Assembly: GCA_963930775.1 (NCBI GenBank)
Contig: OZ005701.1
Location: 3,479,669-3,543,668, forward strand
Reading direction: 5' to 3'
DNA: 64,000 bases
Source: Cliona cf. orientalis
Lineage: Eukaryota > Porifera > Demospongiae > Clionaida > Clionaidae
Shown: one piece after another, positions 39,673 through 51,600 of the stretch
Layout: every line of letters begins with the position of its first letter
Numbering within the stretch: the stretch's first letter is position 1
Notes under the pieces: generated by a model
Database searches by the model: none
What the model saw: the letters and a program-made list of their open reading frames with translations, nothing else
What the model was told of the DNA's origin: nothing
Program-made: the position numbers and the translations under genes

Positions 39673-42600
39673 TTACGCTAGCATTGATTGAGATCCACCA
39701 CTGAGAAGGAGGTACGGAGTCTGGGCAGCTTTCTGCTTGTTCTGTAGTACTGAGAGCATATTTAGCGGCGTGTCCACAGAACTGGATTTATTCAGTAGCT
39801 ACAGGTAGGAAGGGAGAGGAGAGGGAGGGAGGGAGAGGGGAGTGTCAGAGAGAGGAGAGAGAGAAAAAGAGAACGGGAGAGGGGGGAAGGAAATCTAGAG
39901 TGAAGTGAAAGTAGCACACTTGAGCTACCACAACTATTAATGCACATGTACCTGTTGTTCCATCAGCTTCTTCATTCTCTTCTCGGTCTTCTTTTTCCCA
40001 GATCCTCTCCCATGGAATTTGTGAGACATGAACCGGAATGCCTGTAAGAAGTGGCATCTATGATAACCACTACATCTAATAATAATTATTATTATTATAA
40101 TATTATGGCATAGCTAAGTACACAGCAATAACAGCTGATGGCATATTATATTCTAGAAAAATTAGGTACTTGTATAACAAGTATGTTTGATGTCACAATC
40201 ATGGGATAACAGCATGCTATTGTATAATAGAGTGCCAGTTAGTACAGTGCACATGCGCAGATGAAGACCACACCCCTCACTGCAGGCCAAGAGTAGCTGC
40301 TCAAACTCACCGTGTAATAGCGACGTTCTCACTCCATTCGAACGTCGAATCTACCATCAGACCATGATAAGGAGCAGACATCACCTCTCGCTTCGCTTGA
40401 GGCTTGGTGGCCTACCGAGCAGGCCTATCGGAACATACGGCGCTTGCGCCGCTCGCTCGAGCTCGAGAATGCATCTCTATGGCCCCTAGGCTCTGGCAAC
40501 CTCGTTTGTGCACACAGCACAACAATTCTGACCAATCGTGAGTCGTCTGAACCTGTAGGAGAGCGCATCTTTTATGCCCCCCAGGTTAGGACATGGACTA
40601 TATAAGAAAATTGATCGTCTGAAAAATATTTTTCATTGTATATAGTATAATAACACCATCATCCAACAAGAAAACTCCAAATAAACACCCTTGGACAAGC
40701 AGTTTCTACACTTTCACAGACCTGTGCATGCATAAAACTGGCAAGCTAACACTGCCATGACATAAACACCTGCAGTAGCTACTCTTAGATATACAGAATG
40801 TTCTTGTAGTCCTGTCTGTGGGGGAGCCTGATAATAATAATATGCTTCAGGCGTGGGCCTAAGAGAATAGGCTAATTTAAACATTCAATCAGCTTAGAAC
40901 AGCACTGCATATTTACCTAATGCTCATACTACGTAGCTACAGATTTCATAGGCAGCCAGAGGAGGGAGAGGGGTCACATGACTAACATTTTTATTGAATG
41001 GGGAGGGGGCAGAGGAGGTTGGTCACAGAATCTAATTCGAGTGCATTTGCCATAGGCTGCAATGTACGCCCACGCAACCCAGTCAACCAACTGAGTCAGC
41101 AAAAATAATATATTGCACGTTACGTGCGATAATAAAATGCACATTCCACAAAAATCGTGATCAATCTCCTCTAGGGAGGGGGGATTAGATACAAGGGAGA
41201 ACAATAATGGACACTATAATTATATCAATTCCTGTTCAGCAGATAGCAGGAAACTTTGAGGGAGACGAATTTCAGTTTGCAAGGTACCCGCACAAGTTTT
41301 TTCCACAAAATGCTCACTTCTATTGATCAAAAATTTCTCTACTGAAAGTTTCCCGCTATACTGTATGCATTAGCCACTGAACCAATAACCCCCAGGCTGG
41401 ACACACAAGACGTAGAAGAGTTATAAATCAACTAATGCATAATCCATGGGGTCTAGCAATAAGTTTAACCATTATTGTTGGCCAGAAACAAGAGCACAAT
41501 AGAGAGGAATGCAAGGATAGAGTCCGAGTTTGCAGTGTCCTCCCCCAGCTTTATGTTGCAATGAGCGTCAGTGTGAATATGCAACGCAATCCCTTGCGCC
41601 ATAATGTGAATGGGGCCTTAGTCTCATAAATGTGGAGAACCACTGGTCAAGCTAAATGGGTCTGGGAATGCACTCTGTACCTCCTTTGTTGTGAGGAGAC
41701 GTCCTTTCTCATCAACATACTCCAACTTAATGTCCGGAGTGTAACCCTTCTTTTCAGGGAAAGACTGGTCCCTCTCATAGCGAGATAGCTCCCTGCATTC
41801 AACAAAATTAGTGAAATTTATGAAATAACACAATCATGACATGGTATATTAATCAAAGCAATGCATGTACCTATCACCATAGATATTATAGACTTACGTA
41901 CACGGGATTGGAAACTGCTCACGTGAGCAATATAAACGCGCGGGCAATCCGTGTCCCATTATCATGCCCAAGTAGTATTGCATGCGCATACATGTATGCA
42001 GCTGCACTTTACCAGGCGAATTGCAGATAAGCACTCAAGTACGTACCCACTTAGCGGTTTGCTACAGCGTGGCTAGCGGTGGTTTTGTGGTCAACACACT
42101 TTTAGGATGTCCAGGGAAGCTCATGGTAAGTGTGTTGACATAGTGTTATCAATACTATACTAGACAGTTAAGATTTATTACTCACTCATAGGTGTCCTTA
42201 TCAAAGCATTTCAGTCAGTTCTGAAGGATGAGGAATTTGACCTACCCACACCACCAGCTGTTACAGCAAGAAAGGGTGCAGAGTGTGTGCTGACTTGGTG
42301 CACTAAAAATGAAGATAGTGTGGAAGCATTTGCTGGGCAACTAGTGGCTACTTTGGAGGGGTGCTTCACAGAGTGTAAAAAGATTTCTACCCAAAAAGAG
42401 AAACTTTGGGAGCGCTATTACACACTGAGAGCCACTAAAGAGTTTGCCGATAACTGGGCCTCCTTTTTGAAAAGTAGTGGTGCAGCACCTTCACGGACCC
42501 TATACCAGCACATAACCGACGTCGTATTTAACCACCTTATCAAAGAACATTATACCACAATATCAGAGCCTACCCCAGACCCATGTACATCAACACTAGA

Positions 42601-45600
42601 GTATAACGAAAAAAATGCACTTCGCTACATATCAGGCTACATTAGTCGACAAGTTTAAAGGATTCAAAACATATTTTAAAAGATGAATTATGTTTATGTT
42701 TGAGTGAAATGAACGATGTGGATCCGGACGAAATGGAAGACGAGTCGAGTGAATGGATAAGTGTAATTGATAGAGGAGGCCTGAAACATGTAACAAATAC
42801 GACGTACAGTATGTTTGCTAGTATGGAAATTGAATTACGGAAGCACATTCAAAGTACCACTGGACTCAGCGAACTCAACATTCTTGGGGCGAAGAAGCAA
42901 ATCATGGAGAGTGATGACGTGATTTTTTATTGGTCGATGGTATCATCCAACTGGGAAGAGGAGGTGGCTTCAATACTGCTGGAGATGGTCATCAGTAGCT
43001 ATGTTACAATCAGGGGCCACTCCACTGCCTCAGCTTGGCTTGAGAAGTTCAAGAGGGAGTCCAAAAAATCAGTTCAGAAATCGAAAGGAGTGCGTAAACA
43101 ACTCATTTCCAAATCCACACCGTCCTGCAAAGAGTCTACATCAGGGAATACTACCGAAGACTAACTAGATTATTTCACTGTCTTTTTTATGTTTGTATTG
43201 TATTCCATATAATGCTCACTTCAGTGGTGGTCTTTTATTAGAAACCGAGCACATGAAAATAAAAATAATGGTGAGTGCACACTACTACTTCTTGCGTTGT
43301 CGCTTATATAATGGAATTAAACTATTATTATTCTCCTTGAGCCCATCATTGGACTTGCGGCAGTTTCCCCGAACTGGAGCTCTGCAGAATGAATCAATCA
43401 CTCGTAGTGCTTGTGTATTTTGGCAGAACTCGAGAACGTTAGGGTTGTCGCTGGTTCCTCCCCTCTGCCGCTGGCACCCGAAGAATTGTTCCAGTGGGTC
43501 CTGGCAGAGGTTGTTGCTCAAAAATGCCAACTTCTTATCGCTTACTTGAGGTAGGGAGAACAGGAATTCAAGCAATCCAGTGAATGATAGAGCTGCAAAT
43601 AAATTATTATTGTGAGTAATGTGAGTTTCATTACAATGTAAATACTATGTACTTACCAGTCATTCGTAGCCCCAAGAGTGTTTGATCACTAAGAAGCATT
43701 CGCTTCCTTTGAGATTCTGTAAATCCCTCACGTTCTCTCACACTCTTTTCCCAGTCTTGGAGATAAGGGAGAAACTCCGTCTTTAGCCACTACATGCACA
43801 TGATTTTACAATATCACTGACTCACATCATATATTTACTTACCGCCAATCTAAAATCATCTGCCGATCTATAGGGATTCTGAAATGGCTTTCTCTTCCTT
43901 TTGCCACTTGTGAAGTTAGAGACATTCAGAGCATCAAAAAATTTGTCAATCATAGCTACAAATTTTGCCGTCTCACTGACTCTGTCACCTCCAACCAGTT
44001 TGAGTGCTTTGCTCACTGATTCGCTTAAAACCTGTAATTATGTTCATGTTAGGTATACACGTGTATGTATATACGTATGTGAAAAATATTACTTGTGCAG
44101 CAAGGTCAACTCTCATCTTAGAGAAGGAGGTGAGCTGGATATGCTCATACTTGAGCTTTGGCAACAGAGCGAGACCAGATGACCTTCCTGAATCTCCTTC
44201 ATAAAGATCAATCAAATGTTGCCAAGTGATTTCTTGTCCGTTGCACTAATATGATTATCAAAATTTAAATGTACATGTTTAGTTGATTTGGATCTTTCTT
44301 TACTCACCCATAGGAATCGACACTTAGATGCCCAGCAGTTTCTGGTCGTCTTCAGTAGATGAGGAGGGTCAGAAAAAAAGAATAGGTCTCGTTCACTATC
44401 ATTGGCGTGGATGTTATTGACTTTGTAAGTCAGTGCTGACTTGCTGCTATGCAATTTAATCATTCGCCTGTTGTTAGACGCTCCATCCATGGTTGCTCCT
44501 AGTGCCTATTTTTTTTTACATTATAATATTATTAGCTTGCATTCTGTTACATGTATCTTGGTTAGTATAATTATGTACCTTGAGACCTATTCTCTCCACC
44601 CTCTTAACCACCTCCCAAAAGAGTTGAAACAGGGAGTCGCCTGTCAACTTTGTGCTTGAAAATTGCACATATGGGAATTGGAGGTTTGTGAATAGCCCTT
44701 TAACCATGAACGTCAACATCGACTTTGCAGGTGCTGGACTACTGCTGTCAATGGACCGCTCAAAACCAAGGAGATGATTGTTGACCTCTCCAAGGTCAGT
44801 GTACCCAATCAGTGCGCCTGTATGCTTATCATACACAAGATCTTCCCTGTATAGAAATTAGAGGTTACTAGAAGAAATACAATGTTTATGTAGAATAACA
44901 TACCGTATGTACATCTCGTCTACTAGAATGACAACATACTTCTGCCATTCTTCACAAGTAAGAATTCTAGAGGCGAGAAGCAGCTGCTGATCCACTGCAT
45001 TGGAGAAGCCAGTCTTGGCTTTGCAGGAATGGGTGTAGTCCCTCAAGGTGCGTTGAGACGGTAGGGCTATCCCTCCCCCCCGAAGGGTGTCGTATGCCTT
45101 GGAGGATTGGTGTCTCAAATACAAGCACCATCTGTGGTACGGATAGTTGAAGTTATCTATAAATATTCTGTGGGGTACCAGTATTAAGCCTGACCTTATC
45201 ATAAGAGGATGCCACCTCATTCCATTTGGATGTTTAGTTAGCGCCTCTTTCTGATGATCCCAGAAAATGCGCATGAAAGACCCGTCTGGGTGTTTGTCCC
45301 TGATACCTTCAATGTTTCATCCATAATTGATTGGGAGGGGCGGATTTGATTTAAATAATATGACAGCGGTTAATAATGTACAATGTAAGATCAAGTGGGG
45401 AAGAGGCCCACTTCACCATGCTCAAAATGAAATACTGACCTTTGTCCTCCTGTTTCATTATCTCCTTCAGGTCACCGTTCATGTCTTCATCCAAGCACAC
45501 CCCACTTATTGCTGTTAGCTCTTCCAGTTTCTTCAACAATCGGTCCATCTTTTTCTGCGACACTCGGTTTTTGTGCTGGAGCTCTTTGATTCTAGCAACC

Positions 45601-48600
45601 TTCTGAGGTGAGCTGAGGTATCTGTGATTGGTGTGGCTATGTGCTGGTGTTTCCGTGTCAGCCTTCCGATTTGCTGCCTTAGCCAGAGTTCTCCGATAGA
45701 TTGTACACCTTTCACACTGATTACTATGGGAAGATTGCGGTAGCAGTAGGGAACAATCCACATGCCGGATTACTGGCCTTGGAAGTGCTCTGCTGTCCAA
45801 ACGAGCAATGACCTTTGTTCCTAATAATAATTAGTTTTATTAAACTAATTAAAGTGATAGTTTCATGGGTGGTGTTATTATGGTTAATATTGTATTTACC
45901 CGATTGATCGTACAGATTCCCCTGGTGGTGGAGAAGACAGGAGTACTGCTCATCAGGATTTCCTATGCAAAGTTTACTCCTATCTACAGTGGCGAGCAAA
46001 TCAATCACTTCCTGGAGGCATTTGAAAGCTATAGGGGCTGTTGGGATCTTTGCTGGTGTGATGATGGTAGAACCCATGGTGAGTGTCCAGGTAAGGTCAG
46101 TGTGTATGACGAGTGAGTTTGTGAAGGCTGCACCATCAGCACCATATTGCACTTTGTACACTGTTGTATATGCCGTGTCAATATCATCTGCCACTGACCA
46201 ACCCCTGGGAAGTAGTGTAGTGTTCACTCTCAGCCTGTCACCTAAGTGTTTCCCATTGGAAACTGGTGCATTTGCATACACTGATATTGGCAGGGACATG
46301 TGCAGTGGTAGCACCTTCAACGTGGCCAACGGTATAGAAAATTTAAGTGCTCTCTCATAATTTTTCCTTAGGTCAAATTTGAGCTTCCTCCCCATTGGTG
46401 CAATTATTGATGTTTCTAAAATGATAGTAGCATCCAATGAATAGCTTGTGTGTCAGTACTAACCCTCTATCCCGGTGGTCACACTACCAATGTATGTATA
46501 TATGTTATTCTAATCTGACCCCACTTAGTTTCTAGGAAGTTCCAGGTCCGACAAGTATGGCATCCCAGAGGTGAGTTTTTTGTCTTTCTACCTCAAAAAC
46601 TCTGTATGTATAAACATGCTTTTCACATTTACCATTTCCCCCGGTATCCCAGGTGGTGGTCTAACTGTTGCAAGAGTCAAGAAGCTGAAATATTACTTTA
46701 CTACCCAGCTACAAGTCCACAAAGTCTCTCAACTAGCTACTTGAAAGTTTATCTGTTATGAAACACAATTTTGCTCAGTAATGCTGCTACTGCATGCATG
46801 CACAGAGCTGCAGATAGTTAGAGTAATTATGTGTGGTAGCTATTAGTATGTATTCATACCTATTGCAACTTCCTCTTTGGAGATATGATAGAATTCCTGT
46901 GGTTGATGGCGGTCAGAGGTCGCGTTCGTTGGTGCGTGACAAGCGCTTTCCGTGCTACACGGATTGCCCCAGCGCGTTACTACGCGACCATATTGCTCAC
47001 GTGAGCAGTTTCCAATCCCGTGTACGTAAGTCTATAATATCTATGCTATCACCTACATCCCTCTCCTACTACACACTATCAAAAGTGCACAATGTCATGG
47101 AGTGGTCCATATTTACTTGTACCATGGTTGTAACATTCTGACCAATCAGATTGATTTATAGGAGGTGTCTAAATAAAATAGACACCTCCTAGGAGGTGTC
47201 TATCTAGATAGACACCTACCTCTGAGGCTATGAAATTTTACATGATCATGCCTGCTAGGGTAGTTACAGCATCTTTTGTTAATAGTGAAAGAGATGAAGT
47301 ACAGAGCTCTGGTGCAATGCAGAGTACTGTATGCAGATGATTAGTGGGCAGGTCTTACTGCGTTAATTGAATGGGTGGAGCGAATGATTGCCAAGTCAGC
47401 AGAAGTAAAAACTGAGCTGCACTCTGACTACCTCGAGTTGAAATCAAGACAGCGATGACATGGCCGGCCTTTTGTACGCAGCGACAGTAGTATTATGGTT
47501 CTGAATGTCAAGGAAGAAGCTCGAGTTGGACAGAAAACGGCGTCAGCTCACTATGCATCGATGTCCAGCGTCGACTCGATCGACGACGATGGTTTGAACT
47601 GTTGCTAGGTACGCGCTCGAGCCTTTTATGGCCGGCGCTGTAGTTGCTAGGCTGTAGATACGTTGTCAGGACCACGTAGCCCATGGTACAAGTCGGTTAC
47701 ATCACTCGGTTCGGTCTCTACGCGATTTACACAGCCTCGGGCCTCCGGCCCTCGGTGTGTAAATCCCGTAGAGACCTCCACCTCGTGATGTAACCTATAC
47801 ATACCGTTCTCTTTCTTGCTTCCTTTGACGTTCATAGTCCCTGAATGTGTAAAATACATGTACAATATGAACTACTAAGTACAATCCCCAATACTGTGGT
47901 ACATTACAACAATATATTGTCCACAAATTTAATACCAGGATGAATGTCAAATTTGGACCACATGCCTCTGTATCAAATCGTGTTAGGATGTACTCACAAA
48001 TCTCTCTTGGCATCAGTGGCTGTTCTCACGGACTCCCCAGCCTCTCTCTTTGGCTTCTCGTTGGAGATGAATCCCTTCTTGGAGGCCAGCTGGAGGGCTG
48101 CAGCTATCCCACCAGTCACAAGTGGCTCCGCCTCTTGGTAAAGATCCTCCTCCTGTAGGATAGCATAGGTACAGTCAAGATATATACTCTTGGTACAGTA
48201 CATAATTTTAACAGTGTCATTCAACATAAGCACAACAAATCATACATGTAGATCACAACATAGTCCCAGACCTTGTCCTCATTGCGATAAAATCAGTATA
48301 TTAACATAATATACTAGAGCTCTACACAGCACATACCCCACGCACACATTGCGCAATCTATAGATATGCTTTTGTTGCTGCTTGCCCTTGGTTGTAATAT
48401 AGGGCTCTTGGTGATATCAGCCAAAACACCACTAACTCTCTCTGCACTAGATCTAGACTAGGTATCTTACATTCCGATTCGATGGGGCTTTGCATTCCAG
48501 TCTGCAAATAGCTACCAGCCAAACGTGTGCCACTAGCATTATTGACGACCTTTACCAGTCCATAATATTCAATGTTATGTGCATGAGCAGAAAGCACAAG

Positions 48601-51600
48601 GTTTGCATGCATAATAAGCATTTAGTGGGCACTGTCGATAGGCGTGGTTATGAAGGCTAACAAAAAGGCACTATTTGTGACGCTTGTGGACCATATCCCT
48701 CGATTTGAAACACACTGAAGTCTGTTTTTCGCCGAATGCGACTGATTCATTGTGCTTACTAGTCGCTCAGGTGCCTAGACCTCGAGATATGGTGAGTTTT
48801 TTGCTAATGACAACGACGATACGACCGATTACTTTACCCCTTGCACATACGTGCGGGGTAAATATACAAGTACATACATGTAGATGTACCTTTGGATCTG
48901 GTTTTTTGTGTGAGTGTGGTTTCACCTCTGTCCATCCTCCAAGCTCCTCCTGGATCAGCTGGTCCACCTCCATCACATCATCCCTTCCCTCCTCCCCCTC
49001 CTCCTCCTCATCATCATCATCTTCAAGCCGCTGTTCTCCATCATCCTCCTCATACAGACCACCACGAGACTCTGCAGGGAAAAACAAACCATACCACTAC
49101 CACCACCACTACTATGACGACAACGGCGACAACTATAGACTGCTATCTACATGTAGTTTCTAGCACTAATAGCTATCGCTTTGTGCACTCCTACCGAGGT
49201 TTTGCACTATAGTGCTTCACCTGCAAGTAGCTACACAGTTCACTCTCTCTCACCTTCCTCCTTCTCCCCTACTTGTCGACAGAACTCAGCAATGGTGTCC
49301 AGTATAATGGGCCCTCCTTCAGTGTCCCCTGACTCTACCCCCAGCTCCATCTCTGGCTCCTCCTTCTTCACCTTGGGAACACTCTGCAGCATGCTCAGCA
49401 CTTTAGCCGTTCCCTGCACACCAGGTTTGCTCCTCTGTAGCAGACGACGGGTTCTGGGACCAAGCACAGAATCAATGGACTTATACATATGATAAGTATG
49501 TATGATAGCATGAAAGAACTCCATGATAATTTGATAGTCAAGATTTGAGAATTACCTGGTCAATGCTAAGTCCATGTTAGGATCAGCTTCGTCCTTCAAG
49601 TCATCAGCTACAGGAAATGAGAGAAAAACGCATACGCTGTCAGTCCAAAGTTTGTGTAGACTTGGACCTCATGACCAGCCCCTCCCAGCTCTTACCACAA
49701 GCACCTTAAAGCTCATAGTGCTTCTAGACATACATGTACATTTACTACCGTAGTTAATTGAATACAACGCATGAACGCAATAAATTAGCATTTTATGAAT
49801 TCTCATAACGTTTATATATGAGCAACTGACGACCTTTACCAGACAAACACGCGTTATTCAAAATTGAAATCTTTTTCCATGCGTTGTATTAGATTAAGTA
49901 CAGTATCAAATACCAGTTACATGTACATGTACCTGTGCTTGGGTCAATATCTATCTCCATTACTGTGTCTTCATCATCAGCTCTACCCCTGTCCTTACGA
50001 TCACCACCACGACCCCTGATAGGAGTGACATCCACGTATGCAATTATACACACTCACATGTACAAGCATATACAAACATGAGGGGGAAAAGCCCACTTAT
50101 TCCTTCTAGACATCTAGATAGCTGACCTTCTGGAACCATGATCTTTAGAGGCTCCTCCAAAGGAGTGTTTCTGGCTCTCCAGGGACAAGAGATCATCTGC
50201 CTTGACCTTCTCCTTCTTCCTTATCTTTCTCCTCTTCTTGGGTCTCTTGAACTGCACCATCTCCTCTGCAGTGTAGTACTCACTGGCCACCTGGGCCGGG
50301 GCTAGCTCCAGGGACACCTGAACACAAACAACAACCAAACAACAGGGATACCATAATTTGTGTATAAATCACTATCTATGGGGTGCCAAGTGTGTCAAAA
50401 TACTGTATATACATGTATAATTTATGTATATACATGCATGCATGTTTACAGGATGAGGGCACTGACCTCCTTCTCCCTGAGTCTCTGCCTGACTAGCTCC
50501 CTCTGCCTGTCCTCTGATGTGTCCACCTCTCCCTGACTCCCTGCATGCCAGGGAACATCAATATCCACAGCATTCCACAAACACTTGTATGACAAATATA
50601 TTTGGTTGGGGGGGGGAGTGTTTAGCTTCCCTCACATTATAACTTTAGAGCTTAATGATGCTTGGCACGTTATACCATGTTTTTCCAAAAATCTCGGCAC
50701 CTCTAATTATTTGACATCCCTTAACGACCAATGTTAGGCAAAAGTCGTTGCATGTGTAATAATAATATTATCTGCTATAAACTGGAGAAGAATATGTGCA
50801 GCTTATACTAGTACTTACCTTCAAAAATTGGGCATTTGCTTCGTGCCAAATTTTTAGAAGAAACATGGTACATGTACATGTACATGTACATGTAATATAA
50901 TTATACACATTATTTTATATGAATAATACATCTGCATGCAAATATAACCTTCCACCATAAAATCTATGGCACACACAACAGCAACTCACCGAGTGCAAAT
51001 GAGGACTTCTTTTCTCCTTCAATCTCCTCATCATACTTCTTCAGAATGCTCACCCTCTTCAACTGCACATGAATGATATACGTGTACACATTATTATCAC
51101 TAAGATGATGCAAGTAATCAAGGGGAAACCATTTCACCTTGTATGAGTACTGCAAGGTCAGCAGTATGTTGTCAACACAAAAACCTTAATAATTATTTAG
51201 CTTACATTTCCGAACTCGTCGAGCTCCTCCTCATCGTACGGGTTGTAGCCAGGCTTGCCCTTCTTCAGCTCCACATTCTTAGCAGCCTTCTCATCATCAA
51301 TAATGTTCACATTCAAAAGAACATCCCCATCCTCATCCAGAACACCTGAGCAGCAAATGAAAGTTCATACATGTTCTAAATTAAGGTGAATTATAATAAT
51401 ACATGTATTAACAAAAAATTGCACTGAATAAATGTGTTACTAAAAGCAACAAGCGTTGTAAGTTAGCCTAGGCCATTCCGCAAATCACACAAAGAAGCTA
51501 GTACCTGCAAATACATGTAACTGCCATCTTAACTGACCTTTGTCCTTGAGAGTGAGTATGATGTCCCTTCCCTCCCTGAATGCCTCGGTGCTGTGCTCCA

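Follow-up and report, generated by a model that had tools for sequence, protein, structure and literature searches.

The P transposase is composed of six domains, the last of which is an all-helical C-terminal domain carried on a disordered linker; in the assembled complex this domain is wedged between RNase H and a GTP-binding domain belonging to another subunit, where it contacts both transposon and target DNA (PMC7776569). Activity in Drosophila is confined to the transposase form that includes the C-terminal third, and a 66-kDa product without it acts as a repressor (PMC7776569). Here we describe a P-like element of 5168 bp (positions 41878-47045) in an intron of SART1, located in a 64,000-nucleotide stretch of the genome of the sponge Cliona cf. 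orientalis (assembly GCA_963930775.1, contig OZ005701.1, positions 3,479,669 to 3,543,668), hereafter the window. The element contains two convergent genes, a transposase gene and a second gene, ORF2, that recur as a pair across the genome, and it belongs to a family with 7-bp target-site duplications. We favour, with moderate confidence, the reading that this is a cut-and-paste transposon, young and from a deep P-type (TNP-like RNase H) branch, that makes two proteins, with the C-terminal domain encoded as a gene of its own.

Transposase gene

The minus-strand transposase gene has GT-AG introns, an unbroken frame and a single stop at its end (Table 1), in agreement with a preliminary description of this DNA that had it splice without a break; the 835 codons given there become 821 with the present splicing. 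The predicted protein matches PF21787 (2.5e-22), PF21788 (E 3e-21) and PF21789 (5.2e-8), as well as Protein Data Bank (PDB) entry 6p5a (1.7e-16). The PF21788 match marks a GTP-binding insertion domain within the RNase H domain, with GTP binding itself predicted, and the catalytic triad D401, D502 and E754 aligns to D230, D303 and E531 of 6p5a; the stretch around D401 aligns weakly to 6p5a (5.2 bits), yet lies within the PF21787 match. The predicted DDE core and GTP-binding insertion, together with the terminal inverted repeats (TIRs) and 7-bp duplication, place the element in the P superfamily. Three canonical P features are not found here, namely an N-terminal THAP domain, a C-terminal domain in the same polypeptide, and an 8-bp duplication.

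The departures lie at both ends of the protein. Only 67 residues follow the catalytic E754, and by eye the last transposase exons of four further copies in the genome (L020, L042, L044 and L060) end similarly early. No THAP domain (PF05485) is present in the four transposase reads scanned (window, L042, L044 and L060, with the L042 and L060 reads possibly lacking exon 1), and none of 89 transposase loci has any of 94 THAP loci inside 6 kb, ruling out that THAP is encoded by an exon close by. The N-terminal region (window 45440-46395, minus strand) has no Pfam match. A C-x8-15-C-x2-C-x2-[YF]R stretch recurs in the N-terminus by eye, in the window copy and in L020, L037, L041, L042, L044, L045, L060, L061 and L062; it suggests possible zinc binding, and the N-terminus is possibly a new DNA-binding domain that replaces THAP.

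A second gene convergent with the transposase

ORF2 was missed in the preliminary description. It occupies the plus strand of the interval from the left end to the transposase gene, with which it is convergent, and because it is on the opposite strand it is not a transposase exon. Two sister copies, L009 and L010, are 99.46% and 98.24% identical to the window copy (over 5178 and 5232 columns, respectively), and both have an uninterrupted ORF2 frame of 336 codons between stops, the first few being intron. Relative to both sisters, the window copy has a 10-bp deletion at 42653/42654 that produces a stop at 42656-42658 and leaves ORF2 as two frames, of 164 and 172 codons. In L010 a 4-bp insertion near 45919 appears to shift the transposase frame, and there is also a 50-bp insertion near 45812; in L009 both genes are open, as judged from exon-by-exon open frames using the window exon layout.

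The two genes occur together across the assembly (216.8 Mb in 149 contigs). Searches with ORF2 returned 69 matches for the window query and 73 for a divergent query, which cluster into 86 loci, and a 110-residue transposase query returned 119 matches at 89 loci. ORF2 is convergent and downstream within 6 kb at 67 of these 89 loci, compared with 0.1 expected, with a median gap of 1352 bp; the sole non-convergent ORF2 neighbour is, by its coordinates, the ORF2 of an adjacent copy. Three candidates for fused one-gene P elements with long transposase frames (L060, L061 and L062) were rejected, all of them having opposite-strand ORF2 pieces.

The alignment of 22 ORF2 members retains 12 invariant columns with identity to the first member falling to 22%, and these data, with the genome-wide matches and the pairing, rule out a chance open frame. 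Between L009 and either L045 or L020 the proportion of synonymous differences is 0.78 (saturated), compared with nonsynonymous proportions of 0.29 and 0.38, and closer pairs have ratios of nonsynonymous to synonymous substitution (dN/dS) of 0.28 and 0.38; the ORF2s of L009 and L010 are identical. The substitution patterns show that ORF2 encodes a protein under constraint. It also diverges in step with the transposase: distances for ORF2 and for a core segment of the transposase correlate across seven elements (r 0.88), and none of 5000 permutations is as high (of only 5040 possible orders), the set being taken without L041 and without L037 and L062, in which ORF2 is broken.

A comparison of ORF2 with NCBIfam gave nothing useful, and no relatives were confirmed in viral and prokaryote contigs. 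In the accessible literature we found no account of a P-type element that has an additional gene on the opposite strand; Repbase and most subscription papers were outside this search, so we do not claim priority.

ORF2 and the P C-terminal domain

The second half of ORF2 aligns with the C-terminal domains of Drosophila P and THAP9, and its motifs YxxGYV, GGL, E and LLxxI...IR occur in the same order. An hhalign comparison of ORF2 with the Drosophila domain scores 15.1, against a maximum of 9.8 in shuffles (0 of 200 as good), and the comparison with an unverified piece of THAP9 sequence scores 24.4 (1 of 100 shuffles as good). With hmmsearch, the two comparisons give 8.5 and 4.6 bits, each equalled by 2 of 2500 shuffles, and in the reverse test 4 of 24 ORF2s reach at least 10 bits, compared with 1 of 2400 shuffled sequences. 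The fly C-terminal domain is a separate chain entry of 135 residues in 6p5a and 6pe2. A direct genome search with PF12596 had no match anywhere, controls included, and is thus uninformative.

A number of results weigh against the reading of ORF2 as the C-terminal domain of a split transposase. The hhalign probability for both C-terminal matches is just 4-6% (4% for Drosophila), and the THAP9 sequence compared is an unverified one. At a threshold of at least 3 bits the reverse test gives 10 of 24 ORF2s and 58 of 2400 shuffled sequences, with L009 and L010 themselves at -1.1 bits. PF12596 matches 4 of 22 ORF2 members at E up to 1, with a best E of 0.03; the single score given, 12.4 bits, falls short of the 22.6 cut-off, and the divergent L060 and L061 ORF2 pieces have no match. 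An ORF2 profile searched against the PDB at E 10 does not list 6p5a_B, and the canonical domain has nothing that corresponds to the first ~140 residues of ORF2. At 22 of the 89 transposase loci there is no ORF2 within 6 kb; two of these have an ORF2 at 7-8 kb by coordinates, and two others, read over 3.5 kb downstream, lack any ORF2 match at E 1, their downstream frames of at least 70 codons including no transposase exon by eye. Finally, one ORF2 pair has a dN/dS of 0.94, calculated from few changes. On balance, we judge homology of ORF2 to the P/THAP9 C-terminal domain likely, though short of proof.

A proposed split transposase and alternative readings

We infer that ORF2 supplies the C-terminal domain, that its product forms a complex with the catalytic protein, and that both proteins are needed. 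The minus-strand gene would encode a catalytic protein with a non-THAP N-terminus and an RNase H/GTP-binding core that stops a short way beyond the catalytic glutamate, and the plus-strand ORF2 would encode a separate protein whose second half is the C-terminal domain of Drosophila P and THAP9. With this domain supplied in trans, both proteins would be required for the element to excise and to insert through cuts staggered by 7 bp; most likely, the catalytic protein would bind the element ends through its own N-terminus and core, and would gain competence once the ORF2 protein docks at the site that the C-terminal domain occupies in the Drosophila complex.

The window copy, with an open transposase gene and a broken ORF2, would then depend on ORF2 from another copy, and probably cannot move alone. 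The preliminary description considered the element possibly autonomous; this is doubtful because there are two genes in the element, and in the window copy ORF2 is frameshifted by a deletion that neither sister shares. A need for ORF2 from elsewhere would explain how so young a copy has a broken ORF2, in that it either moved in trans or acquired the deletion after insertion.

ORF2 could instead be a true second gene for an independent helper, acting in DNA binding, insertion targeting or transposase import, with mudrB of MuDR and the Myb-like protein of Harbinger as analogues. The pairing, constraint and co-divergence say only that ORF2 matters to the element, and an N-terminal part unlike the canonical domain and a statistically weak C-terminal match are both consistent with a helper. 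However, the ORF2 motifs follow the P/THAP9 order and the transposase is without that part, and we think an independent helper unlikely, if worth keeping in view.

A role like that of the 66-kDa P repressor is also conceivable, with ORF2 acting as a repressor or dose sensor dispensable for movement and the window copy being over-active. P elements do encode a repressor, by retention of intron 3 (PMC7776569), and the window copy is young with an open transposase gene and a broken ORF2. In Drosophila, however, repression comes from the product that lacks the C-terminal third (PMC7776569), so activation is what one would expect of a protein that provides it, and we regard this role as improbable. 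Very little is left to recommend a last reading, in which this is an autonomous P element of the usual kind, with one gene and a 7-bp duplication, and ORF2 is a captured or chance frame. That reading, which is the preliminary description's as far as that description goes, would suit the open transposase frame and identical ends, but it is already contradicted by the ORF2 searches, by an alignment in which identity among the 22 members falls as low as 22%, and by the pairing at 67 of 89 loci.

We return to the split transposase. The broader proposal is that an entire lineage of P-type transposons in this genome uses one, with the DNA-contacting C-terminal domain as a separate convergent gene whose supply in trans could switch the catalytic protein from a bound but inactive state to an active one; we consider the case for and against this extension to be evenly poised. 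If other P-type elements encode the C-terminal third separately, the two-state regulation of P would be more modular than splicing alone suggests, and simply co-expressing the two proteins would allow a test of what the C-terminal domain does. For this lineage, it is unsafe to judge autonomy from the transposase frame alone.

Ends, copies and target-site duplications

The features of the ends given in the preliminary description were all recovered: the 56-bp TIRs are identical, the flanking 7-bp repeat CTATCAC is intact, and a 14-bp palindrome is present in both ends (Table 1). The ends start with CA, and a looser inverted match at 85% extends over 77 and 89 bp. Directly to the right of the element (window 47161-47220) is a short hairpin repeat, in which GGAGGTGTCTA and its inverse occur twice.

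A query with the 60 bases of the left end has at least 43 matches in the assembly (40 of 332 candidates scored), and 32 stretches around left-end matches were retrieved for comparison. Apart from the sisters there are more distant full copies, L020 and L037, with L041-L043 and L045 found through the protein search. The search for other copies suggested in the preliminary description thus found the same terminus with 7-bp duplications, and the differing termini that it named as a refutation did not appear. L009 and L010 each have their own perfect 7-bp duplication; the element is very young and has recently moved.

A perfect 7-bp duplication flanks 21 of the 32 copies compared at both ends, with one mismatch in one further copy. 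The remaining ten have no 7-bp match; eight of these have an altered terminus (L015, L018, L027, L030, L031, L033, L035 and L040), and L019 and L039 have intact ends with 2 and 3 mismatches. This comparison was made without L024, L025, L032, L034 and L036 (altered ends or a repeat view of the same insertion) and without L044 (right end altered). No copy among the 32 has a perfect 8-bp duplication, which rules out that length. The target preference approximates to GTTWAAC with a T three bases ahead of the first G, as compiled from 21 duplications with both orientations pooled and L043 not among them.

The palindrome is a family feature, located 38-40 bases from both ends with no more than one mismatch in 17 of 22 copies examined; two copies of less than 100 bp share one palindrome between both ends, and it is absent from L041-L043. 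It is a candidate binding site for the transposase or a host factor. The two short copies, L011 (93 bp) and L021 (86 bp), consist of little beyond the two ends with one CACGTG palindrome and have perfect 7-bp duplications, such micro-elements apparently being mobile at below 100 bp. There are also ten derivatives of 770-800 bp (L012-L014, L016, L017, L022, L023, L026, L028 and L029), mostly with L020-type ends and all with the 7-bp duplication (one with a single mismatch), which are probably a burst of miniature inverted-repeat transposable elements driven by an L020-type element. A second P-type lineage with the apparent split arrangement is present at nine places that score identically, with a 551-codon transposase frame (L042 and L043, both retrieved, and seven on contigs C4, C5, C6 and C10), and is probably a second young family.

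Genome features and the host gene

The preliminary description is borne out in placing a recent P-like element within a SART1 intron, with SART1 frames on both sides, P-type domains and near-identical sisters. Four flanking open frames were scanned against PF03343 and three of them match, on the minus strand and in gene order, with the insertion point between the upstream and downstream exon-holding frames in Table 1; the fourth (48770-49096) has no match in the same scan. There is no empty SART1 allele in the assembly, where the 300-base left flank occurs once.

Table 1. Coordinates of the element, its genes and the flanking SART1 frames, numbered within the window.
Feature	Position	Strand	Basis or remark
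Left target-site duplication, CTATCAC, 7 bp	41871-41877	.	read directly
Right target-site duplication, CTATCAC, 7 bp	47046-47052	.	read directly
Left TIR, 56 bp, identical to right TIR	41878-41933	+	end comparison
Right TIR, 56 bp	46990-47045	-	end comparison
14-bp palindrome TGCTCACGTGAGCA, CACGTG core, left TIR	41916-41929	.	sequence
14-bp palindrome TGCTCACGTGAGCA, right TIR	46994-47007	.	sequence
ORF2 exon 1, start codon	42107-42125	+	inferred from splice-site reading
ORF2 exon 2	42192-43164	+	frame broken in window copy; second half open 42646-43164
Transposase gene, 10 exons, 821 codons	43285-46395	-	exon borders predicted
Transposase exons 1-5	46395-45900, 45820-45440, 45306-45195, 45131-44904, 44846-44579	-	inferred borders
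Transposase exons 6-10	44505-44308, 44245-44093, 44031-43843, 43789-43657, 43592-43285	-	inferred borders
SART1 open frame	50117-50368	-	PF03343 E 1e-8
SART1 exon-holding open frame, upstream of insertion, host not element	47997-48239	-	PF03343 E 0.0012, under curated cut-off
SART1 exon-holding open frame, downstream of insertion, host not element	41627-41833	-	PF03343 E 3.5e-8

Comparison with known systems

Two-gene DNA transposons with a helper are represented by MuDR (mudrA and mudrB) and Harbinger (a transposase and a Myb-like protein), the transposases of which are unrelated to the one described here, and we know of no two-gene transposon in which the helper is a piece of the transposase. 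In Drosophila, the C-terminal domain is added through germline splicing of the last exon, and the P ends begin with CA, as here. Drosophila P (87-kDa transposase and 66-kDa repressor) also shares the RNase H DDE core with a GTP-binding insertion and the presence of introns in the transposase gene. It differs in its 8-bp duplication and 31-bp TIR, compared with 7 bp and 56 bp here, and in having THAP and the C-terminal domain in one polypeptide, whereas no THAP was found here and the C-terminal part is apparently a separate convergent gene (PMC7776569 for Drosophila P).

THAP9 and zebrafish Pdre2 resemble the present system in having a P-type transposase with a C-terminal domain and internally deleted derivatives with the same ends, but they make a single protein with THAP, and have a 13-bp TIR and an 8-bp duplication (PMC10983969). 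Galileo, a member of the P superfamily in Drosophila, has a transposase with THAP and TIRs that can exceed 1.5 kb, unlike the element here, but it has 7-bp duplications and a palindromic target preference, GTANTAC, that compares with the approximate GTTWAAC here (PMC2775673 and PMC4168063 for Galileo). The preliminary description set the 7-bp duplication apart from the classical 8 bp; the 7-bp length stands as a family rule in this genome, and it is not exceptional in the P superfamily, as Galileo shares it (PMC2775673 and PMC4168063).

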